Positions 24,245 through 33,759 of a DNA stretch of 35,476 nucleotides are shown piece after piece. The stretch is from the NCBI GenBank assembly GCA_002425225.1, contig DILV01000012.1:1-35476 (forward strand). Reading direction: 5' to 3'. Each line of letters starts with the position of its first letter. Position 1 is the first letter of the stretch. A program made the position numbers and the translations under genes. The stretch comes from Thiothrix sp. UBA5583. Its GTDB lineage: Bacteria > Pseudomonadota > Gammaproteobacteria > Thiotrichales > Thiotrichaceae. The notes under the pieces were generated by a model. That model worked only from the letters and a program-made list of their open reading frames with translations. It did not search any database and was not told where the DNA came from.

Positions 24245-24258
24245 GGGAAACTCCGTTT

Positions 24259-24367
24259 TACCCCTCACCCCAACCCCTCTCCCTCAAGGGGAGAGGGGCT
24301 AAGATGGGAGGCAGTAATTCTCTTGTTCCCCTCTCCCCTTGAGGGAGAGGGGGCTAGGGGTGAGGGG
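24259..24367. repeat. dispersed palindromic repeat, copy B (nrtA-nrtB gap)
   Basis: About 109 bp starting TACCCCTCACCCC and ending GGGGTGAGGGG, with inverted arms CCCTCAAGGGGAGAGGGGCTAA and CTCCCCTTGAGGGAGAGGGGG. It fills nearly the whole gap between the nrtA stop (24372) and the nrtB start (24244), so nrt mRNA should carry a very stable hairpin directly after nrtA. That could protect the upstream message or reduce read-through into nrtB. Confidence 0.88.
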
Positions 24368-24371
24368 TTCT

Positions 24372-25775
24372 TTACACCTTCTCGTCTTTCTTCAGCCCGA
24401 TCTTGAACTGCTCGATGTACTCGTTCGGCTTTTTGCCGTCGTAAGTTGTGCCATCGATGAAGTCGCTGGTGGCAGGCTTGTAACCACTTTCTGCTGCGAA
24501 GTCAGGGAAATCTTCCTTCTTCAGCTTGCCTTCGGTAATCAGGGCTTCGGCTGCCACTTTGTAGATGTCAGGGCGGTAAACTTTTTTCGCGGTTTCATCG
24601 AACCACTTGTCATCCTTGGCTTCGCCAATCTGACCCCAGCGGCGCATTTGCGTCAGATACCAGACTGCATCGGAGTAGTACGGGTAAGTGGCGTTGTAAC
24701 GGAAGAATACATTGAAGTCCGGCACATCGCGCTTGTCGCCTTTTTCGTACTCGTAAGTGCCGATCATGGAATTTTCCAGCACCGCTTTATCCGCACCGAC
24801 GTATTCCGGCTTGGAGAGGATTTCTACCGCTTCCTTACGGTTGGCGTTGTTGTTTTCATCCAGCCAGTAAGCAGCACGGATCAGGGCTTTTACCAGACGC
24901 GCCGTGGTGTTCGGGTTCTTTTCAGCAAACTCCTTGGTGATGCCAAACACTTTTTCCGGGTTGTTTTTCCAGATTTCGTAGTCGGTAATGACCGGCACGC
25001 CGATACCCTTGGCGACGGCTTGCTGGTTCCACGGTTCGCCGACGCAATAGCCGTCAATCGTACCTGCTTCCATCGTCGCGGGCATTTGCGGTGGCGGGGT
25101 GACGGAAATCATCACGTCTGCACCGATCTGGCCTTTGATGTCATCTTTGGCAGGTGCGTAAGTACCAGGATTGATGCCGCCCGCTGCCAGCCAGTAGCGC
25201 AGTTCATAGTTGTGGGTGGAAACCGGGAACACCATGCCGAGATTGAACGGCTTGCCATCCTTCTTGTATTCCTCAATGACCGGCTTGAGGGCTTCAGCCT
25301 TGATCGGGTGGACGGGTTTGCCGTCTTTCATTTCCACGTGGGGTTTCATCTTTTCCCACACCGCGTTGGAAACGGTAATCCCATTGCCGTTCAAATCCAT
25401 CGAAAACGGGGTAATGACATCGGCTTTGGTACCGAAACCCACCGTGGCTGCCAGTGGCTGCCCTGCCAGCATGTGTGCGCCATCCAGTTGCCCGTCGATG
25501 ACGCCATCCAGCAGCACTTTCCAGTTGGCTTGCGCTTCCAGCTTGACAAACAAGCCTTCGTCTTCAAAGAAACCTTTTTCATAGGCAATCGCCAGCGGAG
25601 CCATGTCAGTCAGCTTGATGAAACCGAACTTGAGGTCGGTCTTTTCCGGCTTACCGATGTCTGCCTGCACCAGTGTGCTGGTGAACATGCCAGCACCCAG
25701 CCCTATGCTCAGTGCCAATGCCAACGTCGCTTTCCTGAGGAAAGTCCGGCGGTTTGTTGATTGTGTGTTGCTCAT
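24372..25775 (-). CDS. nrtA: nitrate-binding periplasmic protein, Tat-exported
   Basis: Encodes 467 aa from the ATG at 25775. The N-terminus [22 protein letters not shown] is a twin-arginine signal with cleavage near VQA-D (about residue 38). The rest is a CmpA/NrtA-type solute-binding protein: [48 protein letters not shown], and [41 protein letters not shown] are hallmarks of nitrate/bicarbonate binding proteins. It binds nitrate and nitrite for NrtBD. A ribosome binding site AAGG lies upstream. Transcription is preceded by a sigma-54 promoter and an attenuator leader (listed separately). The paralogue nasS lies just upstream. Confidence 0.94.
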
Positions 25776-27864: not shown

Positions 27865-30618
27865 TTACGCCAGCAATGCTTTCAGTTCTGGCACACACGA
27901 GCCGCAATTCGTACCTGCGTTCAGACACCGCCCGATGGCTTCCACGCTATCCAGCCCTTGTTCGGCAATCGCTTTGCGGATGGTCTTTTCCCCGACGTTG
28001 AAACACGCGCAAACCATGCGCCCTTTGTCCTCACCTACCACCGTGGGTTTGCCAGCCAACAGACTAATGCGGTCTTGCGGCTGTAAGGTTTCATGGGCAA
28101 ACAAACTGACCAGCCACTCACGCGCTGGCAATACATCGGCGGAGGCACTGATGAACAGACAGCTTTCCAGTTGCCCACCGACAAAACGGGCTGCACGGTA
28201 GGTTTGGCGGGCAGTATCGAAGTATTCCGTCCAGTTCACGGCATCATCGTTTTGGCACAGCAGCTCGCGGGCGAAGGCTGCCCAATCGGAACTGGGGGTG
28301 TTGCCGGAAAGCTCGTAACGCCAGGCGTTTTCGACTTTGATGATTGACCAGTAATACCCCCCCATCCCCAACCCTTCCCCCGCAAGGGGGGAAGGGAGCG
28401 AAGAGCAAGAAGGGCAAGTCTCTTGTTCCTTCCCCCCCTGCGGGGGAAGGTTAGGATGGGGGGGAAGCCCAACAGGGCTTAGCTTCCTTCGCGCAATCAA
28501 AAACCCACACCACCCTGCTGCAAACGTCACAATCGCCACCGTCGCGTGCTTGGCTTCCGGCTGCCCGGAAATCGGGTCTACCACCGCCGGAATCAGCCGC
28601 CCCACCCCCGCCGCCGCACTGAATTGCCCGCTCCAGTGCATCGGCACGAACAGGCTACCGCGCTGCTGCTCACGGCTGGTTTTTACCCGCACCAGCAGTT
28701 CGCCCAAGGGGTTGTGGAGGCGGGCAAGCGTGCCTTCCTGCAAGCCTTGGTCGCGGGCATCGCAGGGGTGCATTTCCACGTAAGGCTCGCTTTTGTGTGC
28801 CGACAAACGTGCGGAAATCCCGGTGCGCGTCAGCGTATGCCAATGGTCACGCACCCGCCCGGTGTTGAGGACGAAGGGGTATTCTGCACTGCGTAGCGAC
28901 TGCGGCAAACGCGGCTGCACCGCGATGAATTGCGCCTTGCCGGAAGCGGTGAAAAACTTGCCATCAGCAAACAGGCGTTGCGTCCCCTGCCCCGTGGCAT
29001 CCAGCGGCCACTGGGTCGGTGGCAAGGCATCGTATTCCAGCGCACTCAAATCCTGCCACGCACCGATATTGAAACAACGCCCGCCCGTGTTTTCAAACGT
29101 TGACAAGGCGGCGTGTTCGCAGAAAATATCATGTGCCGAGTCGTAAGGGAAATGCGCGGCATAGCCCATTGCCCACGCCACATCGCGGATGATTTCCCAA
29201 TCCTGTTTGGCTTCGCCCGGTGCGGGCAGGAACGGGCGTTGGCGCGAAATGGTGCGGTCGGAATTGGTGACAGTACCGTTGCGTTCGCCCCACGTCAGCG
29301 CAGGCAGGCGGATATGCGCCCACGCCAGCGTATCGGTATGGCGCACACAATCGGACACCACCACCAGTTCGCATTGCGCCAAGGCACGCCGCACTTGGTC
29401 ACTATCCGGCAAACTCACTACCGGGTTGGTCGCCATGATCCACACCGCTTTGACCTTGCCCGCTTCGATCGCCCGGAACAAATCCACCGCCTTCAACCCG
29501 GATTGTTGCGCCATGCGCGGCGATTGCCAGAAGCGTTGCACCAGGTCGCGGTGTTGCGGGTTGTCGATGTCCAGATGCGCGGCAAGCTGGTTAGCCAGCC
29601 CACCGACTTCGCGCCCGCCCATCGCATTGGGTTGCCCGGTGAAAGAAAATGCGCCTGCCCCCGGCTTGCCAATCCGCCCCGTGAGCAAGTGGCAATTGAT
29701 GATGGCATTGCCCTTGTCCACCCCGCTGGAAGACTGGTTGATGCCTTGCGAAAACACCGTGACCACCTTGTCGGTGCGGGCGAACAAATCGAAAAAGCGT
29801 TGCACATCTTCCACTGGCAGGCGGCATTGTTCCGCCACTGCCTGCACGTTGGGGGCAGTGGTTTGCGCCATCGCCACTGCCTGTTCCATGCCGTTGGTGG
29901 ATTGGCTGACGAAAGCGGTGTCGGTATGCCCGTTTGCCGCCAGCCATGCCAGCAAGCCGTTGAACAAAGAAGCATCCGTGCCGGGGGCAAGCCCCAGATG
30001 CAGGTCGGCAAGGTCGGCGGTCTGGGTACGGCGCGGGTCAATCGTCACCACTTGCAGCGCGGGGTTGGCTTTTTTCGCTTTGACCATGCGTTGGTAGAGG
30101 ACAGGGTGACACCACGCGGTATTGCTGCCCACCAGCACAATCAGTTGCGCCTGCTCCAAATCGGCGTAGCTGCATGGCACAAGGTCTTCACCGAACGCGC
30201 GTTTGTGTGCCGCCACCGCCGATGACATACACAGGCGTGAATTGGTGTCGATGTTCGCCGAGCCAATGAAACCTTTCATCAGCTTGTTGGCAACGTAATA
30301 GTCTTCGGTCAGGAGTTGACCGGAAACGTAGAACGCTACGGCGTCCGCGCCGTGTTCCTCAATGATGCTGCGGAAACGGTTGGCAATGGTGCGGGTGGCT
30401 TCATCCCATGACACCCGCTGCCCGTGGATTTCCGGGTACAGCAGGCGGTCGGGGTGGTCGAGCGTTTCTGCCAGTGCCGTGCCTTTGGAACACAGCCTGC
30501 CGAGGTTGGCGGGGTGTTCCGGGTCGGGCTTGACGCTGAACTTGCCGCTGGTGTCCTGTTGCACCAGTACGCCGCAGCCTACGCCGCAGTAGGGGCAGGT
30601 GGTTTTGGTTGTTTGCAT
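27865..30618 (-). CDS. nasA: assimilatory nitrate reductase catalytic subunit
   Basis: Encodes 917 aa. Reduces nitrate to nitrite with a bis-MGD molybdenum cofactor in the cytoplasm. The N-terminal [4Fe-4S] motif is CPYCGVGCGV with LGRLCSKGTAL (residues about 7-50), followed by the molybdopterin core and the molydopterin-binding C-terminal barrel (VLNTGRVRDHWHTLTRTG). The last 60 residues are a BFD-like [2Fe-2S] domain (GRMVCACFNVGEKTIRKAI ... AGTNCGSCVPELKALL). Residues about 719-754 are encoded by palindromic repeat copy C, inserted in frame between the barrel and the C-terminal part. The start ATG at 30618 is 10 bp from repeat copy D. No NasB-like reductase partner is present; the electron donor is unknown. 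Confidence 0.93.
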   Translation of the reverse strand: MQTTKTTCPYCGVGCGVLVQQDTSGKFSVKPDPEHPANLGRLCSKGTALAETLDHPDRLLYPEIHGQRVSWDEATRTIANRFRSIIEEHGADAVAFYVSGQLLTEDYYVANKLMKGFIGSANIDTNSRLCMSSAVAAHKRAFGEDLVPCSYADLEQAQLIVLVGSNTAWCHPVLYQRMVKAKKANPALQVVTIDPRRTQTADLADLHLGLAPGTDASLFNGLLAWLAANGHTDTAFVSQSTNGMEQAVAMAQTTAPNVQAVAEQCRLPVEDVQRFFDLFARTDKVVTVFSQGINQSSSGVDKGNAIINCHLLTGRIGKPGAGAFSFTGQPNAMGGREVGGLANQLAAHLDIDNPQHRDLVQRFWQSPRMAQQSGLKAVDLFRAIEAGKVKAVWIMATNPVVSLPDSDQVRRALAQCELVVVSDCVRHTDTLAWAHIRLPALTWGERNGTVTNSDRTISRQRPFLPAPGEAKQDWEIIRDVAWAMGYAAHFPYDSAHDIFCEHAALSTFENTGGRCFNIGAWQDLSALEYDALPPTQWPLDATGQGTQRLFADGKFFTASGKAQFIAVQPRLPQSLRSAEYPFVLNTGRVRDHWHTLTRTGISARLSAHKSEPYVEMHPCDARDQGLQEGTLARLHNPLGELLVRVKTSREQQRGSLFVPMHWSGQFSAAAGVGRLIPAVVDPISGQPEAKHATVAIVTFAAGWCGFLIARRKLSPVGLPPHPNLPPQGGKEQETCPSCSSLPSPLAGEGLGMGGYYWSIIKVENAWRYELSGNTPSSDWAAFARELLCQNDDAVNWTEYFDTARQTYRAARFVGGQLESCLFISASADVLPAREWLVSLFAHETLQPQDRISLLAGKPTVVGEDKGRMVCACFNVGEKTIRKAIAEQGLDSVEAIGRCLNAGTNCGSCVPELKALLA
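28357..28464. repeat. dispersed palindromic repeat, copy C (inside nasA)
   Basis: About 108 bp (36 codons) bounded by CCCCCCCATCC and GGATGGGGGGG, with arms CAACCCTTCCCCCGCAAGGG and CCCCTGCGGGGGAAGGTT and the same TCTCTTGTTCC centre as copy B. It lies within the nasA coding sequence and keeps the frame. The encoded segment is Pro/Gly-rich (PPHPNLPPQGGK ... SPLAGEGLGMGG). Confidence 0.88.
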
Positions 30619-30627
30619 GGTTGAAGA

Positions 30628-30733
30628 CCCCCTCACCCCAACCCCTCTCCCTCAAGGGGAGAGGGGCTAAAATAAATTTTTTTCTTGCGCCCCCTCTCCC
30701 CTTGAGGGAGAGGGGGGTGGGGGGTGAGGGGTA
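30628..30733. repeat. dispersed palindromic repeat, copy D (nirD end / nasA leader)
   Basis: About 106 bp from CCCCTCACCCC to GTGAGGGGTA. Arms CTCCCTCAAGGGGAGAGGGG and CTCTCCCCTTGAGGGAGAGGGG surround an AT-rich centre. On the minus strand its first part encodes the last 33 residues of NirD. Its end (GAGGGGG) lies about 10 bases before the nasA ATG and could serve as its ribosome binding site. Confidence 0.88.
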
Positions 30734-31037
30734 ACTGAAGAAACACCTTCCCGTCTTCCACCTTCACCGCAAACACATTGCTACAGCCTTCGTCGGGCGC
30801 AAGTGCGTTGCCGCTGGTGAGGTCGATTTTCCAGTTGTGCAGCGGGCAGGTGACAGTTGTGCCGTGCATGATGCCTTGTGACAGCGGGCCGCCCTTGTGC
30901 GGGCAGGCGTCGCGGATGGCGAATACCTGATCGTTGCTACCCCGGAATACCGCAATGCTTTGGTCACGGGTCTTGATGAGGCGCGAACCCAAGACCGGGA
31001 TTTTGTTCAGTTCGACCACTTCTATCCATTTGCTCAT
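30633..31037 (-). CDS. nirD: nitrite reductase small subunit (Rieske)
   Basis: Encodes 134 aa; family members are about 105-110 aa. Partner of NirB in NADH-dependent nitrite reduction to ammonium. Residues 1-101 form a Rieske-like [2Fe-2S] domain with C-P-H-K-G-G-P and C-P-L-H-N-W motifs (about 45-69), so cluster ligands are retained. Residues 102-134 (LTPHPPLPQGERG ... SPSPLEGEGLG) are translated from repeat copy D, an extra tail not expected in the family. The ATG at 31037 has a strong GGAG ribosome binding site; the upstream Met is inside nirB. It starts 14 bp after the nirB stop. Confidence 0.92.
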   Translation of the reverse strand: MSKWIEVVELNKIPVLGSRLIKTRDQSIAVFRGSNDQVFAIRDACPHKGGPLSQGIMHGTTVTCPLHNWKIDLTSGNALAPDEGCSNVFAVKVEDGKVFLQLPLTPHPPLPQGERGRKKKIYFSPSPLEGEGLG

Positions 31038-33665: not shown

Positions 33666-33674
33666 CATGAAGAA

Positions 33675-33708
33675 ACCCCTCCCGACCTCTCCTTATCAGG
33701 GGAGGAGC
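33675..33708. repeat. short GC-rich hairpin between the Fic gene and the nirB promoter
   Basis: CCTCTCC-TTATCA-GGGGAGG forms a 7-bp stem with one G-U pair, within a CCCCTCCC-rich stretch resembling common proteobacterial dispersed palindromes. It may end the Fic-gene transcript although there is no T-run. Confidence 0.35.
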
Positions 33709-33759
33709 AAGAAAAGCGTGCATGAACGTGCAGTGTGTTGGAGCGTTGGCGGGGAAGCG

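Follow-up and report, generated by a model that had tools for sequence, protein, structure and literature searches.

In the genome of Thiothrix sp. UBA5583 (assembly GCA_002425225.1), nasA, the gene for the catalytic subunit of assimilatory nitrate reductase, contains a 108-bp palindromic element that keeps its reading frame. The gene lies on contig DILV01000012.1, of which positions 1-35,476 were analyzed (the window). The element is one copy of a dispersed G-rich repeat, here called subfamily A, and most probably represents a selfish repeat similar to repetitive extragenic palindromes (REPs) and bacterial interspersed mosaic elements (BIMEs), without stop codons in most of its frames, that persists in genes as a near-neutral flexible linker.

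The nasA gene occupies positions 27868 to 30636 on the reverse strand and encodes 923 amino acids, in which Pfam recognizes the families Molybdopterin, Molydop_binding, Molybdop_Fe4S4 and Fer2_BFD. The insert, a subfamily-A palindromic dimer at 28357-28464 on the same strand, reads PPHPNLPPQGGKEQETCPSCSSLPSPLAGEGLGMGG and forms codons 725-760 counted from the GTG start, or 719-754 from an ATG six codons downstream. On the coding strand the 108 nucleotides are flanked by AGCCCTGTTGGGCTT and TATTAC. An earlier note, made from the sequence alone, had described a palindromic repeat of about 108 bp, or 36 codons, in frame within nasA, rich in proline and glycine, and placed between the molybdopterin part and the C-terminal domains. 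This description was borne out to the base: the open reading frame (ORF) has no inner stop, 15 of the 36 inserted residues are Pro or Gly by manual count, and the insert falls between the Pfam matches to Molydop_binding (588-698) and the C-terminal Fer2_BFD (874-923). In an AlphaFold2 model based on an alignment of 50 NasA sequences, the mean predicted local distance difference test (pLDDT) score was 86.2 and residues 723-759 scored below 50; the insert is thus predicted to be disordered within an otherwise confident model.

The arms of the insert (28359-28395 and 28428-28464) are 37 nt long and 81% complementary, as is characteristic of the terminal inverted repeats of miniature inverted-repeat transposable elements (MITEs). 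The folding energy of the DNA strand was -44.5 kcal/mol compared to -23.9 (sd 2.9) for shuffled sequences (z = -7.2), and none of 200 shuffles was as stable. The dimer consists of two REP-like half-elements. The first (28359-28401, reverse strand) is a hairpin whose C-rich and G-rich arms enclose TTGC, followed by a G-rich tail, and the second (28422-28464, forward strand) is inverted with respect to it. Their scores with covariance model R1, 71.2 bits (E 4.5e-13) and 51.2 bits, were obtained with a model built from sequences that included both. No target-site duplication was visible by eye at the nasA, polA or mutS sites on comparison with the empty sites of congeners.

Comparison with homologues, which the earlier note had proposed for residues 719-754, revealed that these residues are absent in relatives. 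With a single metric, the linker is 41 residues long in the UBA5583 protein. Among 80 NasA loci from outside the genus it is 5 residues in 68, 3-15 in 11, and 40 in one (L082), where the letters are ordinary and protein-like, not repeat-like, and the anchor was probably misplaced. A close nasA orthologue is present in 12 of 15 congeners, and the same metric gives 4 residues in eight of these and 28 in four. Counted from RRK to AWRYE, there are 52 residues in the window, 15 in the eight bare congeners and 39 in the four others. The net gain is 36 codons relative to the usual non-congener and 37 relative to the bare congeners. In the four congeners with 28 residues (G002, G012, G013 and G015), the extra part is an inverted pair of palindromes tagged with GTAG. 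This repeat is also dispersed. At E up to 1e-6 it matches 8 of 16 genomes, with 48 rows in G012 and 47 in G013 (both strands counted), and nothing in the UBA5583 genome. Among the 16 genus genomes, type A is found in the NasA linker of UBA5583 only. Since subfamily A is present here and the GTAG repeat at the same place in four congeners, one NasA linker has been entered by two unrelated repeats.

A BLAST search of the 3.55-Mb genome (42 contigs) with the nasA element gave 79 rows, or about 40 places after strand merging. From these and related searches 97 elements were catalogued in 366,616 bp around the sites, a survey that is not exhaustive, as 40 of 53, 150 of 2138 and 40 of 102 candidates were scored in the underlying searches. 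Forty belong to subfamily A (14 dimers and 26 halves), which resembles the nasA copy and has a half-unit close to TTGCTCCCTTCCCCCCTTGCGGGGGAAGGGYTGGGGATGGGGG. The other 57 belong to subfamily B (41 dimers and 16 halves), with ends of the type CCCCTCACCCC. The element of which nasA holds a copy has two inverted hairpins with a G-rich tail pointing outward on each. As in REPs and BIMEs, these are many-copy palindromes that often occur as inverted pairs, and 55 of the 97 elements have matches on both strands. No GTAG or CGTC tag was seen in subfamilies A and B; by eye, the foot of the hairpin in aligned A halves had neither, and a tail similar to GGGGATGGGGG was present instead. A G-quadruplex motif (four G runs with loops of 1-7), such as that at 28357-28401 of the window, was found in 35 of the 40 A and 56 of the 57 B elements, with just 18 such motifs in the 355,098 bp outside the elements. 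At three sites opposite single A halves lie 0.2-2.1 kb apart (G000:C3:36015-36234, C42:73294-73589 and C17:35137-37312), resembling either a dimer split by inserted DNA or two nearby landings.

The earlier note had viewed the repeat as a dispersed palindrome able to colonize coding sequence as a protein linker, and had asked for its copies within ORFs and their frame preference to be counted. The counts support that view. With a home-made, codon-model gene caller (327 genes, 87% coding), which required coding signal on both flanks for a call of "inside", 19 of the 40 A elements were strictly and in frame within genes, 1 was doubtful, 5 were at gene ends, 2 at edges and 13 intergenic. For the 57 B elements the corresponding numbers were 6, 2, 6, 7 and 36. 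The difference in gene residence is significant (Fisher p = 1e-4). Pfam matches were obtained for 27 of 30 carrier candidates, most of which are conserved enzymes, and in-frame insertion into genes for unrelated conserved proteins is also the behavior of the Rickettsia palindromic elements (RPEs). Subfamily A is carried by GcvP, Lpd, HypF, HsdR, PolA, a U32 peptidase, a FadJ-like protein, CobB, Wzt, HsdM, TmcA, MutS, NasA, oxoprolinase (two), nSTAND-WD40 (two), a glycosyltransferase and, doubtfully, PrmC; subfamily B by GcvP (a half-element), NuoG, Mfd, NadE, MetH, DnaX and, doubtfully, MalQ. The nSTAND-WD40 gene (L032 2117-6001, G000:C8) contains two A dimers and one element of a third family, C, all in frame. 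The repeat peptide also has matches in large ORFs of G001, G002, G007 and G010, three of which contain two such matches.

The inserts favor domain junctions and loops. In PolA the insert (293-326) lies between the 5′ nuclease, which ends at 265, and the 3′-5′ exonuclease, which starts at 334, and it lies ahead of the region that matches Klenow structures. In Lpd (86-122) it separates the lipoyl and FAD domains. Relative to the UBA5583 proteins, 14 residues are missing from the insert loop of E. coli MutS (1e3m) and about 27 from that of the HypF structure 3vth. For 28 inserts in 25 genes, 23 were outside Pfam stretches, compared to 8.1 expected from gene-wise random placement. When domains were extended to full profile length, 12 of the 28 were outside, compared to 5.0 expected (p = 7e-4). 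This test omits nSTAND-WD40, the VWA protein (L057) and the Pfam-less L040, L043 and L045. It takes in six inserts that the gene caller had not placed strictly within a gene (two in PrmC and one each in ABC, RND, ScpA and MalQ), of which the RND insert is not among the 97 catalogued elements. For the FadJ-like protein, the interval of the second 3HCDH stretch was assumed, and was set so as to disfavor the preferred reading.

All six frames of the A half are free of stop codons. Of the six frames of the nasA dimer four are open, and of those of the B dimer at 24256 of the window one. Over all copies the mean number of open frames is 4.7 for A and 2.0 for B. This difference points the same way as that in gene content, but its ratio, 2.4, is smaller than the ratio of gene content, 3.6-4.5. 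Within subfamily B, copies in genes have 2.5 open frames and those outside 1.9 (p = 0.14). A stop-codon filter as the full cause of gene residence of A is only partly supported, given that the ratio is too small and that no difference is found within A. Frame use is non-random. Of the forward A halves in genes, 12 are read as PSPLAGEGLGMGG-like, none as LRGKGWGWGG and 4 as PCGGRAGDGG-like peptides (p = 6e-4), and the three frames of the reverse halves are used 9, 1 and 5 times (p = 0.04). This tally comprises the A inserts of the carriers in the domain test plus nSTAND-WD40, with frames read by eye; it omits L040, which the caller places inside a gene, which is read in the PCGG frame and which has no Pfam match. 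The natural reading is selection at the level of the peptide. In the lpd gene of G012 (L229 compared with L215) the frame is broken within the element, where a run of C and a run of G each have 1 base fewer. The nasA copy has four runs of C or G, each 6-7 bases long, and housekeeping genes may therefore be prone to slippage at such elements; the break in G012 may alternatively be a sequencing error.

We propose that a copy of the dispersed, REP/BIME-like element would have inserted into NasA at the short linker that joins its molybdopterin-binding part to its C-terminal part. Since its length is a multiple of three and it is open in the nasA frame, it would be translated, giving a disordered, Pro/Gly-rich loop of 36 residues. 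Copies would insert at many places, and those surviving in genes would be in frame, stop-free and located in flexible linkers or surface loops. Such copies presumably spread by transposition, perhaps with the help of an HUH/Y1 tyrosine transposase acting in trans, and the effect on the enzyme would be near-neutral. Several points weigh against this proposal. Openness does not distinguish subfamily-A copies in genes from those outside (4.75 vs. 4.6 frames, p = 0.93), hence it cannot by itself determine which of them occupy genes. Under the conservative limits 16 of the 28 inserts are within annotated domains, so that the inserts prefer domain junctions without being confined to them. The gain of 37 codons, not 36, relative to the bare congeners leaves one codon unaccounted for. 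The home-made gene caller overlooked carriers confirmed by Pfam (ABC), and subfamily A was seeded from a copy resident in a gene, which may enrich gene-dwelling relatives. No mobilizer was found in the genome, Y1 being the only transposase family searched. Finally, the proposal requires that the insert be translated and not removed, as the sequence suggests.

Other linkers in the genus have been filled repeatedly. PolA was aligned from 16 genomes, including UBA5583, and repeat types were assigned by eye: A is present in five (one partial), C in five, D in two and GTAG in two, and two have no recognizable repeat. Family C encodes TPPNLPLSGEEQ...PPDKGELEGV and gave 27-69 rows in each of five genomes searched. 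Type D encodes PPSPPFSKGG...PPFEKGG and gave 9 rows in G015, 28 in G008 and 52 in G010, with just 4 in UBA5583 and 1 in G012. MutS contains an A half, in frame, in 8 of 16 genomes (UBA5583 and seven congeners), D in one and neither in seven, and by eye the Lpd linker has several repeat kinds across the congeners. On a tree built from PolA, MutS and Lpd with the linkers excised, the PolA types require at least 7 changes; the minimum possible is 4 and the shuffled mean 9.3. As few as 7 changes were seen in just 7 of 200 shuffles, which indicates some clustering by descent. Tentatively, and at rather less than even odds, the interdomain linkers of core enzymes in this genus may be revolving docking sites that the unrelated families A, C, D and GTAG enter and leave, one replacing another, over no more time than separates near-identical species. 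If this is true, linkers change in length and sequence, and even in frame stability by way of their C and G runs, through the turnover of repeats instead of point mutation. The most notable of these findings is that unrelated repeats turn over within one linker.

The linker differences may also have arisen by recombination, either by exchange of segments between species or by conversion between repeats sharing long C/G runs. This is possible, if doubtful. It would account for the difference between the near-sisters G002 (type A) and G008 (type D), for the mixture of A, GTAG, GTAG, none and D in the tight group G001, G012, G013, G014 and G015 (inner order unresolved), and for the number of PolA changes. 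G008 and G015, which are not sisters, have type D in common, with similar flanking codons. However, insertion is still required for the first arrival at each site, the donor of type A in NasA, present in 1 of 16 genomes, is not seen, and the PolA types are somewhat clustered on the tree.

Another explanation is that the inserts are adaptive: longer flexible interdomain linkers would be selected, and the repeats would be merely a ready source. The PolA linker is filled by repeats of four types in 14 of 16 genomes, the Lpd and NasA linkers are likewise filled by several types, the A half of MutS is present in half of the genomes, and a reading frame rich in Trp, Arg and Lys is avoided. The same recurrence, however, is predicted by hot spots of tolerance. 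Close relatives still have bare linkers (8 of 12 congeners for NasA and 7 of 16 genomes for MutS), and the inserts are found in many unrelated proteins. Selection for longer linkers is regarded as improbable, and persistence of a near-neutral repeat remains the preferred explanation.

The stability of the hairpin would fit an intron or a translational bypass element, by which the insert would be spliced out or skipped. This has very little probability and was set aside because the frame is kept: the PolA and MutS inserts of aligned congeners are in frame and stop-free, and those of Lpd also stay in frame, except in G012, where the break is in the element, and in G009. Moreover, removal does not require non-random frames, and an Rfam scan of the window matched tRNAs only. 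An assembly or binning artefact, conceivable in a draft of 42 contigs with misassembly-prone repeats and a nasA copy confined to one genome, is just as improbable, since the flanks of the insert are contiguous inside one contig and the same element recurs at the same codons of mutS in seven, and of polA in three to four, separately assembled congeners, which makes an artefact unlikely as a general explanation.

The presence of palindromic repeats within genes is not new. In 2013 REPs with GTAG/CGTC tags were described inside ORFs of several species, often as inverted dimers coding for 20-30 residues (PMC3733652). Their targets included DNA polymerase I and other repair genes, flexible linkers or loops were suggested, and in two Xanthomonas species recB carried different REPs at nearly the same position (PMC3733652). 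The NasA insert of the four congeners resembles these in having GTAG beside the palindrome. Subfamilies A and B, in contrast, lack the GTAG/CGTC tag and a linked gene for a REP-associated tyrosine transposase (RAYT), and genes harbor about half of the A copies catalogued, unlike the described REPs, most of which are intergenic (PMC3733652). The present study differs in that domain position and frame were tested, and in that unrelated families share one linker across near-identical species.

The earlier note had likened the element in concept to RPEs, palindromes of ~105-150 bp found in frame in genes for unrelated conserved proteins, almost half of whose copies are in ORFs (PMC2229807; PMC10969869). 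The likeness holds for in-frame residence in genes and is one of behavior. The present element occurs in another taxon, a gammaproteobacterium, and has two inverted G-rich hairpins. As to architecture, it is a BIME-like pair of REPs, and since intragenic REPs have already been described (PMC3733652), these are the closer precedent. The Correia/NEMIS elements of Neisseria have an open-frame form abundant in genes and a stop-bearing form that is almost only intergenic (PMC2229807), two related forms that differ in openness as A and B do. The likeness is by description, and the target-site duplication listed for them (PMC2229807) was not seen here. PARCELs are likewise palindromic coding repeats spread among genomes, but they are tandem 25-residue amphipathic repeats, unlike the single linker inserts described here (PMC2996958). 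The enterobacterial RU elements, again likened by description, are MITE-like, occur in annotated genes and keep an open frame of their own (PMC2759123). In the open-licence literature no report was found of this G-rich family, of gene residence in the genus, or of unrelated families alternating in one linker, and searches on the insert peptide, the DNA motif and Thiothrix repeats, judged by titles and the beginnings of abstracts, gave nothing relevant. Intragenic palindromes that serve as linkers are thus known; what appears, from these searches, to be new is this G-rich family, its residence in genes and the alternation of repeat families. These findings suggest that mobile palindromes may supply protein linkers in bulk outside Rickettsia, among them linkers of core enzymes (DNA polymerase I and MutS, for example). 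With two subfamilies of differing openness, and filled and empty sites in sixteen genomes, tolerance and selection can be tested against each other. The inserts are also a natural scanning experiment, which shows the places at which proteins tolerate an additional 15-40 residues.

Of 274 genomes drawn evenly from the class, two matched the A model strongly, UBA5583 and one of the same family, in a scan whose stricter filters lose weak matches. Subfamily A had no match among plasmid records. Subfamily B is widespread: 27 plasmid records match it, including those of Azospirillum, Pseudanabaena, Vitreoscilla and two Thiothrix. Two plasmids of Pseudanabaena galeata have annotated DNA methyltransferase genes that contain a B-like copy in frame (L231 2501-2599; L233 2501-2597). 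One of these genes adjoins drmD of a DISARM system.

The sole Y1_Tnp gene found in the UBA5583 genome (G000:C36:50189-50515; L213 1380-2200) is similar to those of RAYT and TIRYT transposases. It is flanked by its own inverted ends, of the type ATCAAAGGGGTCAGACTCGATT, with a GGGGTCAG motif; these ends match the GGGGWSAS motif given in PMC3733652. No A or B copy was found within 1.5 kb of it, and the best A match has E = 7. A link between this transposase and the A and B repeats was looked for and not found, the terminal repeats of the gene being unrelated to them. A RAYT/TnpA-REP gene flanked by the repeat, which is associated with REPs and BIMEs, was thus not found for these subfamilies.

Three subfamily-B dimers, all on the forward strand, are present elsewhere in the window. 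That at 1953-2066 is intergenic, and that at 24256-24376 lies between two genes, overlapping the start of one by 7 bases. The third (30624-30734) is located between nirD and nasA; the nirD ORF reads through it as a C-terminal tail, LTPHPPLPQGERG...SPSPLEGEGLG. This dimer stops 5 bases short of the likely nasA ATG at 30618, and because it adjoins that codon it may also shape the translation start of nasA. An intergenic half-element of the related family C (33672-33713, forward strand) is 93% identical over 42 bases to the polA insert of L185.

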